IMG/VR virus record: IMGVR_UViG_3300006847_000019 | Coordinates: 1-37,653 of that record | Source: a virus | Strand: one strand, 5' to 3' | DNA: 37,653 nucleotides | In this document: piece after piece, positions 3,150 through 17,007 of the stretch | Layout: the number at the start of each line of letters is the position of its first letter | Position numbering within the stretch: position 1 is the first letter of the stretch | Program-made: the position numbers and the translations under genes | The notes under the pieces: model-generated | What the model saw: only the letters and a program-made list of their open reading frames with translations | Database searches by the model: none | Told to the model about the DNA's origin: nothing

Positions 3150-3177
3150 TGTCAAGGTGTGTGTGACCTAGGTCACA
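3150..3177 (-). promoter_or_regulatory. CRP/GlxR-type operator with adjacent -35 box
   Basis: TGTGACCTAGGTCACA (3162-3177) is a perfect 16-bp palindrome that fits the GlxR consensus TGTGANNTANNTCACA. On the minus strand it is followed after 6 nt by a consensus -35 hexamer, TTGACA (3155-3150). I find no convincing TANNNT -10 box at 16-19 nt. The site overlaps the last codons of the 79-aa gene and lies upstream of the 99-aa gene. The early-operon control region has the same arrangement. Confidence 0.6.
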
Positions 3178-4382: not shown

Positions 4383-5231
4383 TCATGCTGCCCTCATGTA
4401 TCCATGTCCCCAAGAGTCGCCGTACACTTTGCCGCTAGCCGTAATCGGCACGCCTCGGAATTGGGTGCTCATAACCTCGCCGTACCGTCTGGCAACGCGC
4501 TTGGCTTTCCACCTTGGAGCCTGGCCTAGCAATTCATCGTGGATGGGAAGTAGAACGGTTGACGCTAGCTCAGGATCGGCCATGACAGCGATCAGCCCAT
4601 CACACATGATATCCCTTGCTGTGGACTGTATTTCGTAGTTCACGACCCTGTAAGCCTTCATCAATTCGACCGGCAACCTACGGCCGTAATCCGTTGTGAT
4701 GTAACCGACTTTCCACTCCATCAGGTTGTTAATGCGGTGCCGCACCTTGGCTATTGCCAACCTGCCTGACGGAGTGTCTTGCCGGTATTCGAACATCTCT
4801 GAACGTAGTGAGCGGTAAAGCCTGTATTCGTTTGGGGTCAGTGCACCGCGAATCAGCTTGTCTTGCTGCTGGCGCTTGTACCTTGTGAGCGCGGGGAATT
4901 CTTCGCGGTATTGCACGATGATTTCTTGAGCCACTTCAAAGGGAATACCCGCCTGCTGTGAGAGCGTGAATGCCCCGCCTCCATAGAGCCAACCGAAGTT
5001 GACATTTTTGGTATAGCGGTACTGGTCTGGCGTGTAATCCTCTCCGAAGAGTTTTACGGCTGCAATCTTGTGAAGAGACTCCCCGCGCTCAGCCGCTTCT
5101 ATAAGTGCTTGCTCCCTTGCCAAAGCGGCTGCCACACGCAATTCAATTTGGTCATAGTCACACGAGATGATGGCGTGACCAACCTCTGCGACGATGGCTC
5201 GCCTGACTGCCGCACTGGAAAGGAGTTTCAT
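4383..5231 (-). CDS. polA: Family A DNA polymerase, C-terminal piece (palm/fingers)
   Basis: 282 residues carrying the catalytic half of a PolI/T7-type polymerase. Motif A is SCDYDQIELR with the metal-binding Asp near residue 25. Motif B (O-helix) is YRYTKNVNFGWLYG near 71-84. Motif C is HDE at 231-233. It lacks the exonuclease, thumb and TGR elements, which are on a separate gene ending at 6831. The first residues, SSAAVRRAIVAE, match the stretch that directly follows the QQLP segment in intact polymerases, so the split falls just before motif A. The ATG overlaps the stop of the 60-aa gene by 4 nt (ATGA), which implies coupled translation. All catalytic motifs are present, so it is probably active together with the N-terminal piece rather than a relic. 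Confidence 0.95.
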   Translation of the reverse strand: MKLLSSAAVRRAIVAEVGHAIISCDYDQIELRVAAALAREQALIEAAERGESLHKIAAVKLFGEDYTPDQYRYTKNVNFGWLYGGGAFTLSQQAGIPFEVAQEIIVQYREEFPALTRYKRQQQDKLIRGALTPNEYRLYRSLRSEMFEYRQDTPSGRLAIAKVRHRINNLMEWKVGYITTDYGRRLPVELMKAYRVVNYEIQSTARDIMCDGLIAVMADPELASTVLLPIHDELLGQAPRWKAKRVARRYGEVMSTQFRGVPITASGKVYGDSWGHGYMRAA

Positions 5232-5536: not shown

Positions 5537-5914
5537 TCAGTTCATGCAAGCGCGGTTGTAGGAATGGAAGAGTGCGATTTGTATTCTGGTGTTTGGGTCC
5601 AGTTGCTGGAAGAAATTCATTCGAGACATCCTGCCCATTGCCAGCATGAGCACTTCAAGATGACGCATTTCATCTACGCGATTCTGGTAACGGCGAAACC
5701 TCTCATAGTAGGAAGTAGGTCGACTCTTGGCGAAGTACCCTGTGTCGGATATCCGTGCGACACGCTCACTGAGGATCCCGTCCAGTGTGAAGCTCGCATC
5801 CTGCAATCCGCCTAGCTTCTCTCTAGCTTCATCACTGTACTTGGGGTCAGTCAATGACCAACTGAACTTACTGAGATCAATTGGCTCACCATCCTCTGGA
5901 ATGAATTCAATCAT
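5537..5914 (-). CDS. Hypothetical 125-aa protein inside the polymerase insertion
   Basis: Function not recognised. The N-terminus is acidic (EFIPEDGEPIDL). The middle, from about residue 35, holds charged helical stretches (EAREKLGGL, YYERFRRYQNRVDEMRHLEVLMLAMGRM in segments), so it is probably all-alpha. GGAGG lies 1 nt before the ATG, and a weaker upstream stretch may also serve. Its ATG overlaps the stop of the 48-aa gene. It is the largest gene of the insertion after the SLOG protein. I see no nuclease (HNH, GIY-YIG, LAGLIDADG) motif, which argues against a homing endonuclease. Confidence 0.8.
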   Translation of the reverse strand: MIEFIPEDGEPIDLSKFSWSLTDPKYSDEAREKLGGLQDASFTLDGILSERVARISDTGYFAKSRPTSYYERFRRYQNRVDEMRHLEVLMLAMGRMSRMNFFQQLDPNTRIQIALFHSYNRACMN

Positions 5915-6053: not shown

Positions 6054-6201
6054 CTTTCACCTTCGTTACTTTCCCGTCGTCGCTCACTTCATACTTGCCT
6101 TCCCTCAGCAAGCGCAAAGCATGGACGTAAGCGATTTCTAGGTGTGCCATGAGGATTCGCGCCAATCGCTTCTCTTTACTAGCTAGAACCATTTCAGTCA
6201 T
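6034..6201 (-). CDS. 55-aa helical microprotein with acidic tail
   Basis: Residues 5-35 form a likely helix (SKEKRLARIL, HLEIAYVHALRLLREG). A short strand and a strongly acidic end (KDDDEDD) follow. The ATG overlaps the stop codon of the SLOG gene by 8 nt; a second ATG three codons later is an alternative start. The 3' end overlaps the 48-aa gene. Function unknown. It is supported mainly by the uninterrupted frame and the coupled arrangement. Confidence 0.55.
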   Translation of the reverse strand: MTEMVLASKEKRLARILMAHLEIAYVHALRLLREGKYEVSDDGKVTKVKDDDEDD

Positions 6202-6682
6202 TCCAATTTAGGCTTGTGATGCCTAGGCTTTGACGATGTTCGGCCATCGGGTAGAACTGTGCTTGTCCCAATGGATTGACAAGCCAGAAAGGTATTCCTT
6301 CCTTCTTCGCGTATCGAACGGTTGCCCACGTGCCGGAACGCATTTGTGCTTGATTTGATGTGAAACCCTGAACTGTTGCAATAAGGATAGTGCTTTCACT
6401 GACGATGATTGTGTTACGTTCCAATGCTGGCAAGGGGACCATGACTAGATCACTTTTAGTCTTGGCAAGCCAACGCTCACTAACGTTTGAGGCGGGGTAA
6501 GCGTATGTAAGGAATCCAAGGGCTTTGGCTATCTTGAAGGCTTCCTCATCGCTTCCCGTACAATCGCCATGGCGTAGTGTGTTGGCACTATTTATTGTCC
6601 AATGGATCATGAACAATGCCTGCACCTTGGCGCGTGCGCTAGCCGACATTCCGTGTCTTGACCCTGTGAAACCTATTTCCAT
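6194..6682 (-). CDS. SLOG-family (DprA/LOG-like) Rossmann protein
   Basis: 162 residues with the look of an SLOG-superfamily nucleotide-binding fold: GFTGSRHGM at residues 3-11, HGDCTGSDEEAFKIAKALG in the middle, a strand ending IVSESTILIAT, and the typical RSGTWATVRYAKKEGIPFWLV near 125-150. SLOG proteins bind or process nucleotides or nucleotide-derived ligands and include DprA and LOG. The exact ligand cannot be read here. The start at MEIGFTGS follows AAAGG with 6-nt spacing and overlaps the stop of the 49-aa gene (TGATG). The frame extends upstream, but only over neighbouring genes. It sits between the two polymerase pieces, so a replication or anti-defence role is conceivable. Confidence 0.85.
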   Translation of the reverse strand: MEIGFTGSRHGMSASARAKVQALFMIHWTINSANTLRHGDCTGSDEEAFKIAKALGFLTYAYPASNVSERWLAKTKSDLVMVPLPALERNTIIVSESTILIATVQGFTSNQAQMRSGTWATVRYAKKEGIPFWLVNPLGQAQFYPMAEHRQSLGITSLNWND

Positions 6683-6831
6683 CACTGGCCTTTCTTCGAT
6701 AGTGCGATTTTCAGTACCATGATGCTCATCTTGATCCCCGTCAGAACGCCTAACTGTCCTCTCGGGTTCTTCCAATGCTCGGCTTTGATTGTCATGAACA
6801 GGGATTCGAGCAGTCTTATAGCTTCCTCCAT
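6682..6831 (-). CDS. 49-aa microprotein directly after the polymerase N-terminal piece
   Basis: A basic, mostly helical protein (EEAIRLLESLFMTIKAEHW, then KNPRGQLGVLTG, IKMSIMVLKIALSKK). Its ATG overlaps the stop of the N-terminal polymerase gene (TGATG), with AAGGA 9 nt upstream. Its stop overlaps the ATG of the SLOG gene in the same way. The position and coupling suggest it could help hold the two polymerase halves, but nothing in the sequence proves that. Confidence 0.65.
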   Translation of the reverse strand: MEEAIRLLESLFMTIKAEHWKNPRGQLGVLTGIKMSIMVLKIALSKKGQ

Positions 6832-8009
6832 CACTCTTGATCCTTAGTCGGTAGTTGCTGGAAAATACCGGCACTCATGCGACCCGTTCTAGCCGCTAGA
6901 GAATTGATTGACGGGTGGACCCTGCCCTGACTATCCCTTGCCCTCAACATCCCCTCTGCGTAAACCTGAGCGCGTTTGTTGAGCCTTCTAGCCGTGAGTA
7001 TGTAGCGGACCAACTTCCGCACTGGACGGTTGCCCGTTTCCGCCAAGCTTTCCAGAACCGTGTTATCCATTTGCCACTTGCCGGATGGGGTTTTTAGTCT
7101 CAGCTTGGCGCCTAGCTCTAAAAGGGTTACGGCAATTTGTTGGCCGGAATTTATGTTATTGCAACCCAAGACAGCTGCCAGCTCTATCAGATGGTCGGCA
7201 CGCCGCGTGAGTGCGGCTTGGTATTGCTGAAGGTACCGCACATCTACGAGCATGCCCCGACGTTGCAACCGGTCACAGAGCAAGTCAATTTGTAAATCCC
7301 TGTCGTACAAACCATTGGCACGACTGTAGGTGGTCCCATTGAAGCGCCAGAGCCGATATGTGAGTATGGGGTCGGCACCAGCGTAGGCAATGTAGGTAGG
7401 GTGCTTGATGTCTTGCATTGCCCAGCCTTCAGATATCAAAGCCTTGCGTACCTTGGGTTGTCCCTTGCGAGGTCCGGATTTGTAATACTCACCTGGCATC
7501 GGCACCGTAAGTTGCTTAAAGCCAAGCTTGAGCGCCACTTCCCACTTACCGGCCGCTGGATCGATATGCGCTGTGCATTGCTCTTTCAGTCCAAGGTCTG
7601 CGCCGCCTTCCTCCGCCTTTCGTGGCTCGCGATGGTGAGCTGTGATGTAAGCCTCGTACTTGCAAACCACGTCGGACTCATAGCCGAGATACGCGTCTAC
7701 ACAACGCACGTCATGCGGTCCGTTGTATCCAATCCAGTCGATGCCGAGTGACCAGATATTTGTAATTGTCTTGCGCCACTTGGCGGGAATGACGAATGCT
7801 CGAATGTCGTTACCAATCTGAAAGGTTCGCAGCCTCCAATGGGGTAGGTAGCAGTCGAGTCCTGTTGATTCTGTGTCCATGCCCAGTTCTTGCCCGACGA
7901 ACCGTTTCGCCCAACGCAGAGCGCGTTTGGCATCGTCTTTGTTCTCCACAAAGTGAAAATAGATTTGGTCACCCTGTAGCGTATCCTTAATGGTTATCAA
8001 GCCACTCAC
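6831..8009 (-). CDS. polA: Family A DNA polymerase, N-terminal piece (3'-5' exonuclease and thumb)
   Basis: 392 residues. The proofreading exonuclease is complete: DTE at 45-47 (Exo I), NGPHD at 96-100 (Exo II) and YAGAD at 209-213 (Exo III). The thumb and start of the palm follow, ending with the conserved SLAARTGRMSAGIFQQLP segment and then TKDQE and a stop. In intact family members this segment runs straight into the motif A strand, which here is on the gene starting at 5231. Together the two pieces give 674 residues, close to full length. The GTG start lies inside the end of the glycosylase gene and has only a weak upstream site, so coupled translation is likely. A TTG three codons later is an alternative. 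Confidence 0.95.
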   Translation of the reverse strand: MSGLITIKDTLQGDQIYFHFVENKDDAKRALRWAKRFVGQELGMDTESTGLDCYLPHWRLRTFQIGNDIRAFVIPAKWRKTITNIWSLGIDWIGYNGPHDVRCVDAYLGYESDVVCKYEAYITAHHREPRKAEEGGADLGLKEQCTAHIDPAAGKWEVALKLGFKQLTVPMPGEYYKSGPRKGQPKVRKALISEGWAMQDIKHPTYIAYAGADPILTYRLWRFNGTTYSRANGLYDRDLQIDLLCDRLQRRGMLVDVRYLQQYQAALTRRADHLIELAAVLGCNNINSGQQIAVTLLELGAKLRLKTPSGKWQMDNTVLESLAETGNRPVRKLVRYILTARRLNKRAQVYAEGMLRARDSQGRVHPSINSLAARTGRMSAGIFQQLPTKDQE

Positions 8010-13929: not shown

Positions 13930-15861
13930 CTATTTACTGTGGTCAATCACATATCGTAGGTACTCGACTCCCCGCCTTTCATCGAGTAATCGAAATGAAT
14001 CGTGCGCCAGTTCCTTGTTAGCTATTGCGGTACCAACGTCAACTGTGCCAAGGGAACGAAGGTAGTAATACATGCATTGCCTTGGGTTGCTGACCCTGTG
14101 GGTCCTATCCTCTGCTTGTATTTGTTGGTCAGGAATCCTTGTCTCACTTAGGAAAATAGTTCGTGAAGCGCTGTCGATTGTAATTGCTGTCCCGCCTGCT
14201 TTCACATTCAGCATCAACAGGTGCTCATGGCCACTGCTGTTGAAGCGTTCAATTATCTTGGCGCGCTTGGTGGAAGAGCCGACCTTGCCCGTGATTGCAG
14301 AACATAGCGGTTTACCTGGTTTGGTCTTGAAATGCTTTTCCAATGCTGCCATGAACATTTCTAGCAGTCCAGTATAGAAACTGACGAACACCACTTTGTC
14401 TATAGGGTCTTTCGGGTACCCCCACTCTTCCAATGTCTCGACCACCCAACGGAATTTATTGGATGGAAGTGTAGGGTAGAACTTCTGTTTGCGCGTGCCG
14501 TCAGCCTTGTCTAGCCATGTGACGTTACCGTATGAGCTTGCAAATTGCTTCAGCCTGGTCAGTTCAGCCAGTGCGGTTGTCGCCATCAACCGGCCGGATT
14601 TAAGCTCTGATACTGAGGTTTCAAACATTTGATTGTATGCCTTGGCTTGCTTCCCTTCCATCTCAAGCCAAATACCTATTGGGCTGTCTTCGTCGTGGGG
14701 GTCGAGTGGCGTGCCTATTTCCATCTTGGGTGGCAAATCTTTTGCAACTTCAAGCTTCGTCCGCCGAAGGGAAATGGAAGCTAAAGAGTCCCATAGCAAA
14801 GGCTCACGTTCCTTGATGAAATCCCCTATAGCCCAACCTGTGTAGCCACCCTTTTTCCAGAACAGTTCCGCCCAACGGTGGAACGCCGGATATGCAATAG
14901 GGTCGAGCCAGTTGAGCGTACCCCACAGGTGATGAGGCATGCTGTTCATGGGCGTGCCGGACATGGCCAGCTTGATACCGTCCGATCGAAGTCTGAGCTT
15001 GTCCATTCCGTTGCGGCGTAATGTCGGGATGCTCCCTCTGTGAATGAGGCTGTCATGGGATTCATCGATAATGACTGCACCCCAATCGATCTCGAACAGC
15101 CGCTTGAAGGTTGGTACGTCAATCTTTTTGGTTTTTCGATCCTTCTTGTGGTTGCATGCCAACTTGCGTTTCGTCTTATTGGTTAGCTGGCAACTCTTAC
15201 CGCAACGATGGCAGATAAGCATGGTCCGGACCATGACCATTTCCGGGTGAACGATTATCCATGTGTGTTCGTCCATCACTGTCCGGCGTAGCTTCCAATC
15301 CCGTTGAGACCATCCGTCAGGGAACGTAACCGGCTTGTGCCACCTAGGAAGTAGCCGACGGATTTCACGCTGCCAGACAGGCTTAGCGGCTGTCTTAGGG
15401 GCAATGACTACGTAGGGTCCGGGTATTTGCGCCTCGATAATTCCGCCGATGGCTATCAACGTCTTGCCCAAACCAGGCTCATCGAAAATACCGGTAGCGG
15501 GATTGTCGGCAACGAAACGCGCGCCAACCTTCTGATACTTGCGTTGCTTCATGAGTCTGAAGAGAACGGGTGCCTCATCCTTTACGTGATCGAGCTTGGC
15601 ATTTTTAGAGGCAGCCAAGGTGGACATGGAGTCCCGAGAGTTGCGGACACCAGTTGCCCAACGGCGTAACTCCATGCCGACACGCAAACGCTTTTTGTAT
15701 TTGGCTTGAAGTAGTTTGCATGTCTCATAGTTCAGGGGCACAGTCCATTGCCCTGTGGCCGACTCATAAGCACCAGGTATCGCGGAGCGAATACCAGGAA
15801 GCGGACCATCCGTTTTGAGGACGATCCGCTTACCTTTTTTCTCGATATGTATTGGAGTCAT
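13930..15861 (-). CDS. SNF2-type (SF2) DNA helicase/translocase
   Basis: 643 residues. Walker A-containing motif DEPGLGKT at 127-134, motif Ia VVIAPKTAAKPVW, DEAH-type box IIDESHD at 264-270 and SGTPMNS (motif III) form the first RecA-like lobe. The C-terminal lobe has the SETRIPDQQIQAEDRTHR motif VI region. Cys 217, 220, 224 and 236 form a small zinc-finger insertion between the motifs of lobe 1. The first 50 residues (IPGAYESATGQWTVPL) are a short accessory domain. SNF2-type proteins translocate on dsDNA to remodel complexes or assist replication restart. The ATG directly follows the stop of the 38-aa membrane protein (TAGATG) with no good site, so translation is probably coupled. Confidence 0.93.
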   Translation of the reverse strand: MTPIHIEKKGKRIVLKTDGPLPGIRSAIPGAYESATGQWTVPLNYETCKLLQAKYKKRLRVGMELRRWATGVRNSRDSMSTLAASKNAKLDHVKDEAPVLFRLMKQRKYQKVGARFVADNPATGIFDEPGLGKTLIAIGGIIEAQIPGPYVVIAPKTAAKPVWQREIRRLLPRWHKPVTFPDGWSQRDWKLRRTVMDEHTWIIVHPEMVMVRTMLICHRCGKSCQLTNKTKRKLACNHKKDRKTKKIDVPTFKRLFEIDWGAVIIDESHDSLIHRGSIPTLRRNGMDKLRLRSDGIKLAMSGTPMNSMPHHLWGTLNWLDPIAYPAFHRWAELFWKKGGYTGWAIGDFIKEREPLLWDSLASISLRRTKLEVAKDLPPKMEIGTPLDPHDEDSPIGIWLEMEGKQAKAYNQMFETSVSELKSGRLMATTALAELTRLKQFASSYGNVTWLDKADGTRKQKFYPTLPSNKFRWVVETLEEWGYPKDPIDKVVFVSFYTGLLEMFMAALEKHFKTKPGKPLCSAITGKVGSSTKRAKIIERFNSSGHEHLLMLNVKAGGTAITIDSASRTIFLSETRIPDQQIQAEDRTHRVSNPRQCMYYYLRSLGTVDVGTAIANKELAHDSFRLLDERRGVEYLRYVIDHSK

Positions 15862-16795: not shown

Positions 16796-16895
16796 TGGGG
16801 AAGCTAGGAATCGAACCTAGCTCAAGGTCCCTTCCCAAAAACCTTGACGATATGGGCACCAGGTCATATCTGCTCTACCACTGAGCTACTTCCCC
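16796..16895 (-). tRNA. Aberrant tRNA-like gene with enlarged anticodon loop and hairpin variable region
   Basis: A perfect 7-bp acceptor stem (GGGGAAG/CTTCCCC), a D-arm GCTC-AGTGGTA-GAGC and a T-arm CTAGG-TTCGATT-CCTAG are all canonical, with discriminator A and no encoded CCA. The middle is abnormal. The anticodon arm is GATATG/CATATC (6 bp) around a 10-nt loop ACCTGGTGCC instead of 5 bp and 7 nt. The variable region forms a 7-bp stem TCAAGGT/ACCTTGA with a 12-nt loop. If T of CTGGTG is position 33, the anticodon would be GGT (Thr), but this is uncertain. The length is 100 nt. It is the first element of the early transcript after the CRP/GlxR-controlled promoter. Confidence 0.75.
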
Positions 16896-16902
16896 AAGCT
16901 GA

Positions 16903-16929
16903 GGGACCACGTACCGGGTACATGATCCC
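16903..16929 (-). promoter_or_regulatory. Hairpin in the leader of the early transcript
   Basis: Minus strand GGGATCATGTAC and GTACGTGGTCCC pair over 12 positions (two G-U wobbles) around a CCG loop. It lies between the predicted transcription start (about 16951) and the 5' end of the tRNA-like gene, 7 nt upstream of it. It may be an RNA structure for processing or attenuation, or a near-palindromic protein site on DNA. Confidence 0.6.
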
Positions 16930-16957
16930 CCTTCTAAGCTATGCAGTTTTGCCCCTG

Positions 16958-16987
16958 AGGGTATGCCTTGGCCGAAAAACTTGTCAA
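16958..16987 (-). promoter_or_regulatory. Main early promoter
   Basis: On the minus strand a consensus TTGACA (16987-16982) is followed after 18 nt by TACCCT (16963-16958), a TANNNT -10 box. It is the only good promoter between the lysis genes and the replication operon and sits 4 nt downstream of a CRP/GlxR-type palindrome. It would transcribe the hairpin, the tRNA-like gene and the early genes. Confidence 0.65.
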
Positions 16988-16991
16988 GATC

Positions 16992-17007
16992 TGTGACGTA
17001 CGTCACA
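16992..17007. promoter_or_regulatory. Perfect CRP/GlxR-type operator
   Basis: TGTGACGTACGTCACA is a perfect 16-bp palindrome that satisfies both the general CRP pattern TGTGA-N6-TCACA and the stricter corynebacterial GlxR pattern TGTGANNTANNTCACA. It abuts the early promoter (4 nt from its -35 box). The same type of site recurs at 3162-3177, also next to TTGACA. Recognition by a host cAMP-responsive regulator or a phage protein of that family is inferred. Confidence 0.7.

Follow-up and report, generated by a model that had tools for sequence, protein, structure and literature searches.

An actinophage-like contig, as judged from its genes, carries an RNA gene in which the acceptor, D and T arms of a tRNA are intact and two perfect hairpins stand in place of the anticodon arm and the variable loop. 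We consider it fairly probable that its product is a non-decoding RNA, processed like a tRNA and acting in trans on a tRNA body. Phage tRNAs are usually seen either as a codon supply or as a replacement for tRNAs destroyed by host defence. If this reading is true, it would add a third use, in which the tRNA frame serves as a stable, processed and ready-made carrier of other RNA loops.

Architecture of the RNA

The window, by which we mean the whole stretch of DNA analyzed here, is an unannotated IMG/VR virus record of 37,653 bases. For its tRNA-like gene (Table 1), a first-pass annotation had described perfect acceptor, D and T arms, a class I-like D arm, an anticodon-position arm of 6 bp and 10 nt, and a variable hairpin of 7 bp and 12 nt; the sequence bears out each of these features, and coordinates and strand are exact. 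Read from the sequence, the frame comprises an acceptor stem with 7/7 pairs, U8, a D stem (4/4) closing the loop AGUGGUA, a T stem (5/5) closing UUCGAUU, and A73. The 51-nt middle consists of an A, the first hairpin, a G, the second hairpin and a further G. As RNA, the first hairpin pairs GAUAUG with CAUAUC (6/6) around the 10-nt loop ACCUGGUGCC, and the second pairs UCAAGGU with ACCUUGA (7/7) around the 12-nt loop UUUUGGGAAGGG. Together the five stems contain 29 pairs, every one of them Watson-Crick.

Table 1. Features in and around the RNA gene of the window, and the two-hairpin RNAs of two related phages
Feature	Position	Strand	Basis or remark
tRNA-scaffold RNA gene	16796..16895	(-)	Rfam RF00005 47.0 bits, fold; one copy only in the record
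Acceptor stem; discriminator A at 16796	16889-16895 with 16797-16803	(-)	GGGGAAG/CUUCCCC, 7/7
D arm, class I type	16872..16886	(-)	GCTC-AGTGGTA-GAGC; sequence and Rfam alignment; stem 4/4
Hairpin 1, anticodon-arm position	16849..16870	(-)	6-bp stem GATATG/CATATC, 10-nt loop ACCTGGTGCC
Hairpin 2, variable region	16822..16847	(-)	7-bp stem TCAAGGT/ACCTTGA, 12-nt loop TTTTGGGAAGGG
T arm	16804..16820	(-)	CTAGG-TTCGATT-CCTAG; sequence and Rfam alignment; stem 5/5
Strong leader hairpin, 31 nt, 14 predicted pairs	16901..16931	(-)	Leader fold; just upstream of the RNA 5' end
Promoter-like TTGACA-N18-TACCCT	16958..16987	(-)	Sole exact TTGACA-N18-TANNCT match in the window
Palindromic operator-like site TGTGACGTACGTCACA	16992..17007	(-)	Adjoins the -35
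First ORF downstream of the RNA, 260 aa	15980..16762	(-)	No Pfam family; weak phrog_5307
DNA helicase, next gene in the same transcription unit	13930..15861	(-)	Query for finding relatives
Two-hairpin tRNA-framed RNA of L130	12823-12915		IMG/VR 3300004481_000147
Two-hairpin tRNA-framed RNA of L133	12963-13054		IMG/VR 3300025164_000338

A covariance-model score, which the first-pass annotation had called for, supports the scaffold: the Rfam tRNA model (RF00005) aligns end to end (model positions 1-71) with positions 16895-16796 of the minus strand and exceeds its gathering score of 29; the segments for the D and T arms lie 46 nt apart, compared with 17 in the model. The MFE fold of the RNA has the same arms at -41.4 kcal/mol (z -3.1; 1 of 200 shuffles was equally low). 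It lengthens the variable stem via G-U pairs, leaving a 4-nt loop, and shifts one acceptor pair into the T stem, giving an acceptor/T partition of 6/6 rather than 7/5. Two perfect hairpins side by side, one with 6 bp or more and the other with 7 bp or more, arose in none of 5000 shuffles of the middle, and a complete tRNA scaffold in none of 20 shuffled windows, against one in the real window. Folded by itself, the middle is merely modestly low in MFE (z -2.0; 186 of 5000 shuffles were equally low). Position 48, directly before the T stem, is a G. A G15-C48 (Levitt) pair is the usual core pair of tRNAs; its partner is thus missing here, and the core is unlike that of a normal tRNA. The earlier claim that tertiary folding is probably kept therefore holds as far as the Rfam score, the fold and the scaffold statistics go, but not for this core pair.

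Comparison with ordinary and unusual tRNAs

When all alternatives for a canonical anticodon arm (5 bp, 7 nt) in the 51-nt middle were enumerated, no good one emerged: the candidates have at most three Watson-Crick pairs, are offset by at least 10 and overlap the strong hairpins. An alignment with a standard 17-nt anticodon arm, which the first-pass annotation had named as evidence that would count against it, was thus sought and not found. Likewise, no single contiguous excision produced a canonical anticodon arm in the window RNA or in the RNAs of three related phages, L130, L133 and L134. Since it lacks both a standard arm and a single-excision join, the window RNA can be classed neither as an ordinary tRNA nor as one split by an intron, and an RNA of this sequence, being devoid of a usable anticodon, should not decode. 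The first-pass view that it does not fit a normal decoding tRNA is strengthened by these two results together with the Rfam, fold and scaffold statistics.

We also compared the RNA with known types of tRNA. A decoding elongator tRNA has a 5-bp stem, a 7-nt loop and U33, where the window RNA has 6 bp and 10 nt and is not reported as a tRNA by ARAGORN; genes like this one are therefore probably under-annotated. Class II tRNAs (Ser, Leu, Tyr) resemble it in their long base-paired variable arm, here the 7-bp hairpin at 16822-16847, but have a standard anticodon arm and a class II D arm. By the general distinction between the two classes, the D arm of the window RNA, AGCUCAGUGGUAGAGC, is of class I, and it is combined with the 10-nt loop at the anticodon position, no G15-C48 pair, and A73 where Ser needs G73. 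Frameshift-suppressor tRNAs usually have anticodon loops of 8-9 nt; with 10 nt on 6 bp, the window RNA lies outside this range, and the frameshift suppressor raised as a possibility in the first-pass annotation is unlikely. Finally, the available part of PMC7609411 describes allo-tRNAs and irregular tRNAs from soil metagenomes and metatranscriptomes (Mukai 2017) as tRNA-like sequences with a long variable arm, as here, some with a five-stem junction and some unchargeable in vitro. As portrayed there, however, allo-tRNAs have an acceptor/T partition of 8/4 or 9/3, compared with 7/5 by sequence and 6/6 in the MFE fold, and an extra stem between the acceptor and D arms, which the window RNA lacks.

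Some features nevertheless recall a decoding tRNA of odd shape, for instance a tRNA-Thr(GGU) that is class II-like and has a larger loop, or else a frameshift or bypass tRNA. The variable arm is long, as in class II, CU-GGU-GC occupies the middle of the 10-nt loop, and GGU is central in both 7-nt loops of the L130 and L133 RNAs; the same element as these, at L123:7823, is called Thr(ggt) by ARAGORN. We regard this reading as improbable in view of the 10-nt loop (12 nt if the stem is taken as 5 bp), the absent G15-C48 pair, the class I D arm, the rejection of the window copy by ARAGORN, and G33 instead of U33 in the first loop of the L130 and L133 RNAs. A GGU near the center of a 10-nt loop is, by our estimate, a coincidence of about 1 in 20, noticed post hoc and hence not counted as evidence.

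More improbable by far is an intron-containing tRNA, in which part of the middle would be excised to leave a normal anticodon arm. Such genes do seem to exist elsewhere in phage contigs: a pattern combining a class I D arm with an overlong middle matched at least 120 stretches of viral contigs, and a single excision renders 40 of the 105 distinct overlong elements among them canonical (1.1 expected by shuffling), some of the 40 joins being weak or one of several possible. Yet the same procedure joins none of the window, L130, L133 and L134 RNAs, and the extra length is split between two separate places.

Related RNAs in the phage lineage

Searches with the window RNA itself yielded no homolog. 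BLAST of the RNA region against phages returned short matches only, most of them to ordinary tRNAs in the D or T arm; a megablast with 20 kb had no match. An exact 39-mer of the RNA was absent from viral_contigs, and loop-based patterns were absent from viral_contigs and genome_contigs; a pattern scan for UGGUG at the anticodon position found only two members of family A, described below (L069 and L235). Conservation of the window RNA's own loops can therefore not be shown.

Helicase searches yielded 4 loci and then 77, of which 19 form, together with the window, a close set of 20 records. The nearest relatives, L127 and L128, have helicases 76-77% identical to that of the window and a small ORF at the site of the RNA; a loose frame scan found no tRNA frame at the syntenic site, and Rfam found no tRNA on the whole records (G001, G002). 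The 20 records were further scanned with a script that requires an acceptor stem of 7/7, a T stem of 5/5 and a full D stem and ignores the 3' tail when picking. It returned 28 hits, 22 of them distinct, and labelled 11 as odd. Three of these, L131:1297, L137:8608 and L130:7909, are near standard, with middles of 23-25 nt; the loop of L130:7909 has 4 nt. Middles of 29-72 nt occur in the remaining eight, which comprise the window RNA, four elements in L129 and one each in L130, L133 and L134. With L140, which has the same four oversized RNAs as L129, tRNA-framed RNAs with a middle of at least 29 nt occur in six of the 20 records. An intact frame with two adjacent perfect hairpins between the D and T arms is found in the window, L130 and L133 RNAs and in the L129/L140:5974-type element. 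The strict script and Rfam disagree in part: the L133 element is missing from the Rfam results, and L134:6616 and an element of the L137 record (G011:18327-18413) from those of the script.

All 22 distinct RNAs have C74, including that of the window and the other odd-labelled elements (11/11), and at most one has a full CCA tail (ACCA in the script's test). As the script is blind to the 3' tail, the constancy of C74 is independent evidence that odd and ordinary elements share their 3'-end processing. Separately, most relatives of the window (L129, L130, L132, L133, L135, L137, L138, L139, L141, L142, L145 and L146) have a tRNA whose anticodon, UAA or UAG, is that of Leu. Its body is of class I and its variable loop has 5 nt, which sets it apart from ordinary bacterial Leu tRNAs.

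The RNAs of L130 and L133 belong to the phage lineage of the window (helicase 58-61% identical) and resemble the window RNA in the acceptor/D/T frame, the class I D arm, the two perfect hairpins and A73-C74. They differ from it in their 7-nt loops, an 8-bp second stem, their sequence and their location. Both occupy the same locus, where a terminator-like hairpin is followed by the RNA and then by an exonuclease-like gene (gene type judged by eye). Within viral_contigs, their loop pattern occurs in these two contigs only; a match in a Methylomonas MAG, around which no tRNA frame was seen by eye, was dismissed as chance.

Between the two RNAs, stem 1 differs on both sides in four of six pairs, and stem 2 on both sides in four of eight and on one side in another; thus, of the 14 pairs in the odd stems, eight have both partners altered and one a single partner, and none is broken in either RNA. 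By contrast, the loops, UGGGUGA and CUGGUCA, are identical in all 14 nt. The differences affect 17 of 28 stem nt and 0 of 14 loop nt (P 8e-5 for unequal change, in a small sample of two sequences), and the D and T stems have likewise changed in compensation. Compensated stems around frozen loops imply that an RNA of such architecture is maintained for its loops. To judge from these sequences, RNAs of this kind are under selection and their loops matter, as demonstrated for this pair only; the pair moreover supplies a concrete, testable loop sequence. Its RNAs do not align with the window RNA outside the frame, so that common descent is not demonstrable, and they may be related to it by architecture rather than by descent. 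The comparison with related phages suggested in the first-pass annotation thus had a divided outcome, with no ortholog at the same site and compensatory stem changes in an architectural match.

These results bear on the possibility, also raised at first pass, of a decaying tRNA gene with random insertions in its anticodon and variable regions, which is now less likely and in our view quite unlikely. A single copy with no ortholog that is absent from the nearest relatives would fit decay, as would the modestly low MFE of the middle. Random insertions would hardly account, however, for 29 Watson-Crick pairs out of 29, adjacent perfect hairpins of a kind that shuffling did not produce (0/5000), the retained C74, and relatives of the same architecture that evolve by compensation with frozen loops.

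Genomic context

The genes of the window include a phage primase, polymerase, helicase, exonuclease, terminase, portal and tape-measure, and its helicase and terminase have their best matches in actinobacterial phages, at 34-48% identity among the matches listed. A Pfam search of 20 window ORFs gave no RNA ligase, integrase or tRNA enzyme; the RNA ligase family PF09511 was found in none of the 20 lineage records, a search in which the control genomes gave none either. As a side observation, the gene for DNA polymerase I consists of two minus-strand pieces (4383-5231 and 6831-8009), about 1.6 kb apart, which match consecutive parts of phrog_17 (652-988 and 994-1234); two ORFs between them (5537-5914 and 6194-6874) belong to no Pfam family. 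An intron, a mobile insert or a split gene are possible explanations, and Rfam gave no intron here at gathering level.

A scan of the RNA region for TATAAT-type promoters found none, and no terminator-like site was detected between the RNA and the 260-aa ORF. The unit of palindrome and TTGACA has a second copy in the window at 3177 (-) and is present in L127, L128, L129, L131 and L146 (five of the 19 related loci), in L127 and L128 at the syntenic place. On the evidence of these motifs, the RNA heads an operon behind a promoter-like site and a palindrome that is conserved in the two nearest relatives. In several relatives, a TGTGA-N6-YCACA palindrome lies 1-6 nt upstream of TTGACA (window 16992-17007 and 3162-3177; L127:8408, L128:8530, L129:244, L131:15274, L146:6224). 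We take this phage regulatory unit to resemble a CRP/GlxR site, GlxR/CRP being only a candidate regulator.

The location suggests the main rival to a trans-acting product, a leader role for the downstream gene. As a cis element (tRNA punctuation), the RNA would be cut by RNase P or the 3' enzyme to set the mRNA 5' end or amount for the 260-aa protein and the helicase, and its inner hairpins would be filler. Consistent with this, the RNA lies between the promoter-like site and the first ORF, behind a strong leader hairpin, and the L133 RNA ends 2 nt before an ATG of the next gene. Yet L127 and L128, which lack the RNA, use the same operon, the L130/L133 RNA is placed differently, before an exonuclease gene, and its frozen loops and compensated stems imply that the loops themselves matter. 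On balance, we consider such a cis role unlikely.

Proposed function

A non-decoding, trans-acting RNA is suggested by the intact acceptor/D/T framework, by the two perfect hairpins that replace the anticodon arm and variable loop, by the place at the head of an operon, by the 3' context, N73-C74 with no encoded CCA, which it shares with ordinary tRNA genes in this lineage, and by the purifying selection on loops, with compensated stems, seen in the L130/L133 pair. Judging by its frame, its 3' context and its location in the operon, the RNA would be transcribed with the operon, excised by host RNase P and the 3' tRNA-processing enzyme, and stable; CCA would then be added. Acting in trans, it might present both loops to some host factor involved in the handling of tRNA.

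Of the possibilities raised at first pass, a decoy and an RNA regulator processed by tRNA enzymes are the remaining candidates. The likeliest single function in our assessment, put forward tentatively, would be to act as a decoy for, or to trap, a defence nuclease or toxin of the host that is directed at tRNA. We favour it because the anticodon and variable loops, the two places where such enzymes are known to cut, are the ones altered, and because the RNA is accessory, being absent from the closest relatives, and varies between relatives. To trap a tRNA-cutting enzyme, an RNA would need just such a tRNA body whose loops are changed, and it would be gained and lost among related phages, as is observed here. 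According to the available parts of the respective sources, VapC, PrrC, Colicin D and Colicin E5 cut tRNA in the anticodon loop, and anticodon-loop changes in phage tRNAs are predicted to evade anticodon nucleases (PMC10264068), while Septu and retron-Eco7 cut the variable loop (PMC13096335). Published phage tRNAs that counter defence seem to act as functional tRNAs. In the one well-studied case, as described in the accessible text of PMC11555353, a phage tRNA-Tyr no longer rescues from defence once its anticodon or stem-loops are altered, a result that counts against a pure decoy there.

Anti-defence phage tRNAs as outlined in these excerpts (PMC10264068, PMC11555353, PMC13096335) are like the window RNA in being phage-borne with a changed anticodon or variable loop. 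They keep a 7-nt loop and decode, whereas the window RNA cannot decode by any fold found. GGU is central in its first loop and in both loops of the L130 and L133 RNAs, and a more specific version of the decoy, though rather unlikely, would be a fast-evolving class of five-armed, tRNA-bodied decoys with GGU anticodon-like loops (tRNA-Thr type) at the anticodon and variable positions, which would tie up tRNA-cutting or tRNA-binding enzymes of the host. No phage tRNA-framed RNA with two extra hairpins was found in the literature as judged by titles and abstract openings, a range outside which most subscription papers lie. The nearest description, within the available text of PMC7609411, concerns irregular allo-tRNA-like sequences from soil metatranscriptomes, some of which cannot be charged.

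Other overlong tRNA-framed elements in viral contigs

Several other groups were observed among the overlong elements. Family A (L003, L011, L037, L049, L051, L052, L056, L061, L069, L070, L074, L077, L079, L085, L090, L096 and L235) is a recurring tRNA-framed RNA with the conserved inner motif UCAUGGUGAAGGACC...CGC...GGG; none of its members was made canonical by a single excision, and the L096 copy had no BLAST match in cultured phages.

Family B (L032, L045, L047, L058, L073, L098, L111, L112, L113, L118, L005, L014, L039, L042 and L064), with the common motif UA...short hairpin...ACAGCAA, and family C (L040, L046 and L094) are phage tRNA genes that are interrupted by some 40-46 nt. In most of them the insert follows ACG/GCG on the 5' side of the anticodon stem, and its excision restores a canonical anticodon arm with perfect pairing (Lys UUU, Asn GUU, Ile UAU, Thr UGU and others). 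Rfam found only tRNA across the insert-bearing elements of the 20 loci scanned, and no description of such phage tRNA inserts was found in the literature. Among 40 records (20 with inserts, 20 mostly without), RNA ligase PF09511 is present in two and RtcB in one. The inserts resemble short introns of tRNA genes in phages, possibly an unrecognised class of mini-introns.

Lastly, tRNAs also occur nested within each other. In L007 (~5015-5110), one tRNA, whose acceptor, D and T arms are perfect, contains a complete tRNA-Phe in its anticodon loop, and what looks by eye like a tRNA preceded or followed by half of another occurs in L009, L025/L053, L033, L044, L048, L054, L059:1875, L076, L078, L084 and L101. 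Excision of such nested tRNAs by RNase P and RNase Z would leave ligatable ends.
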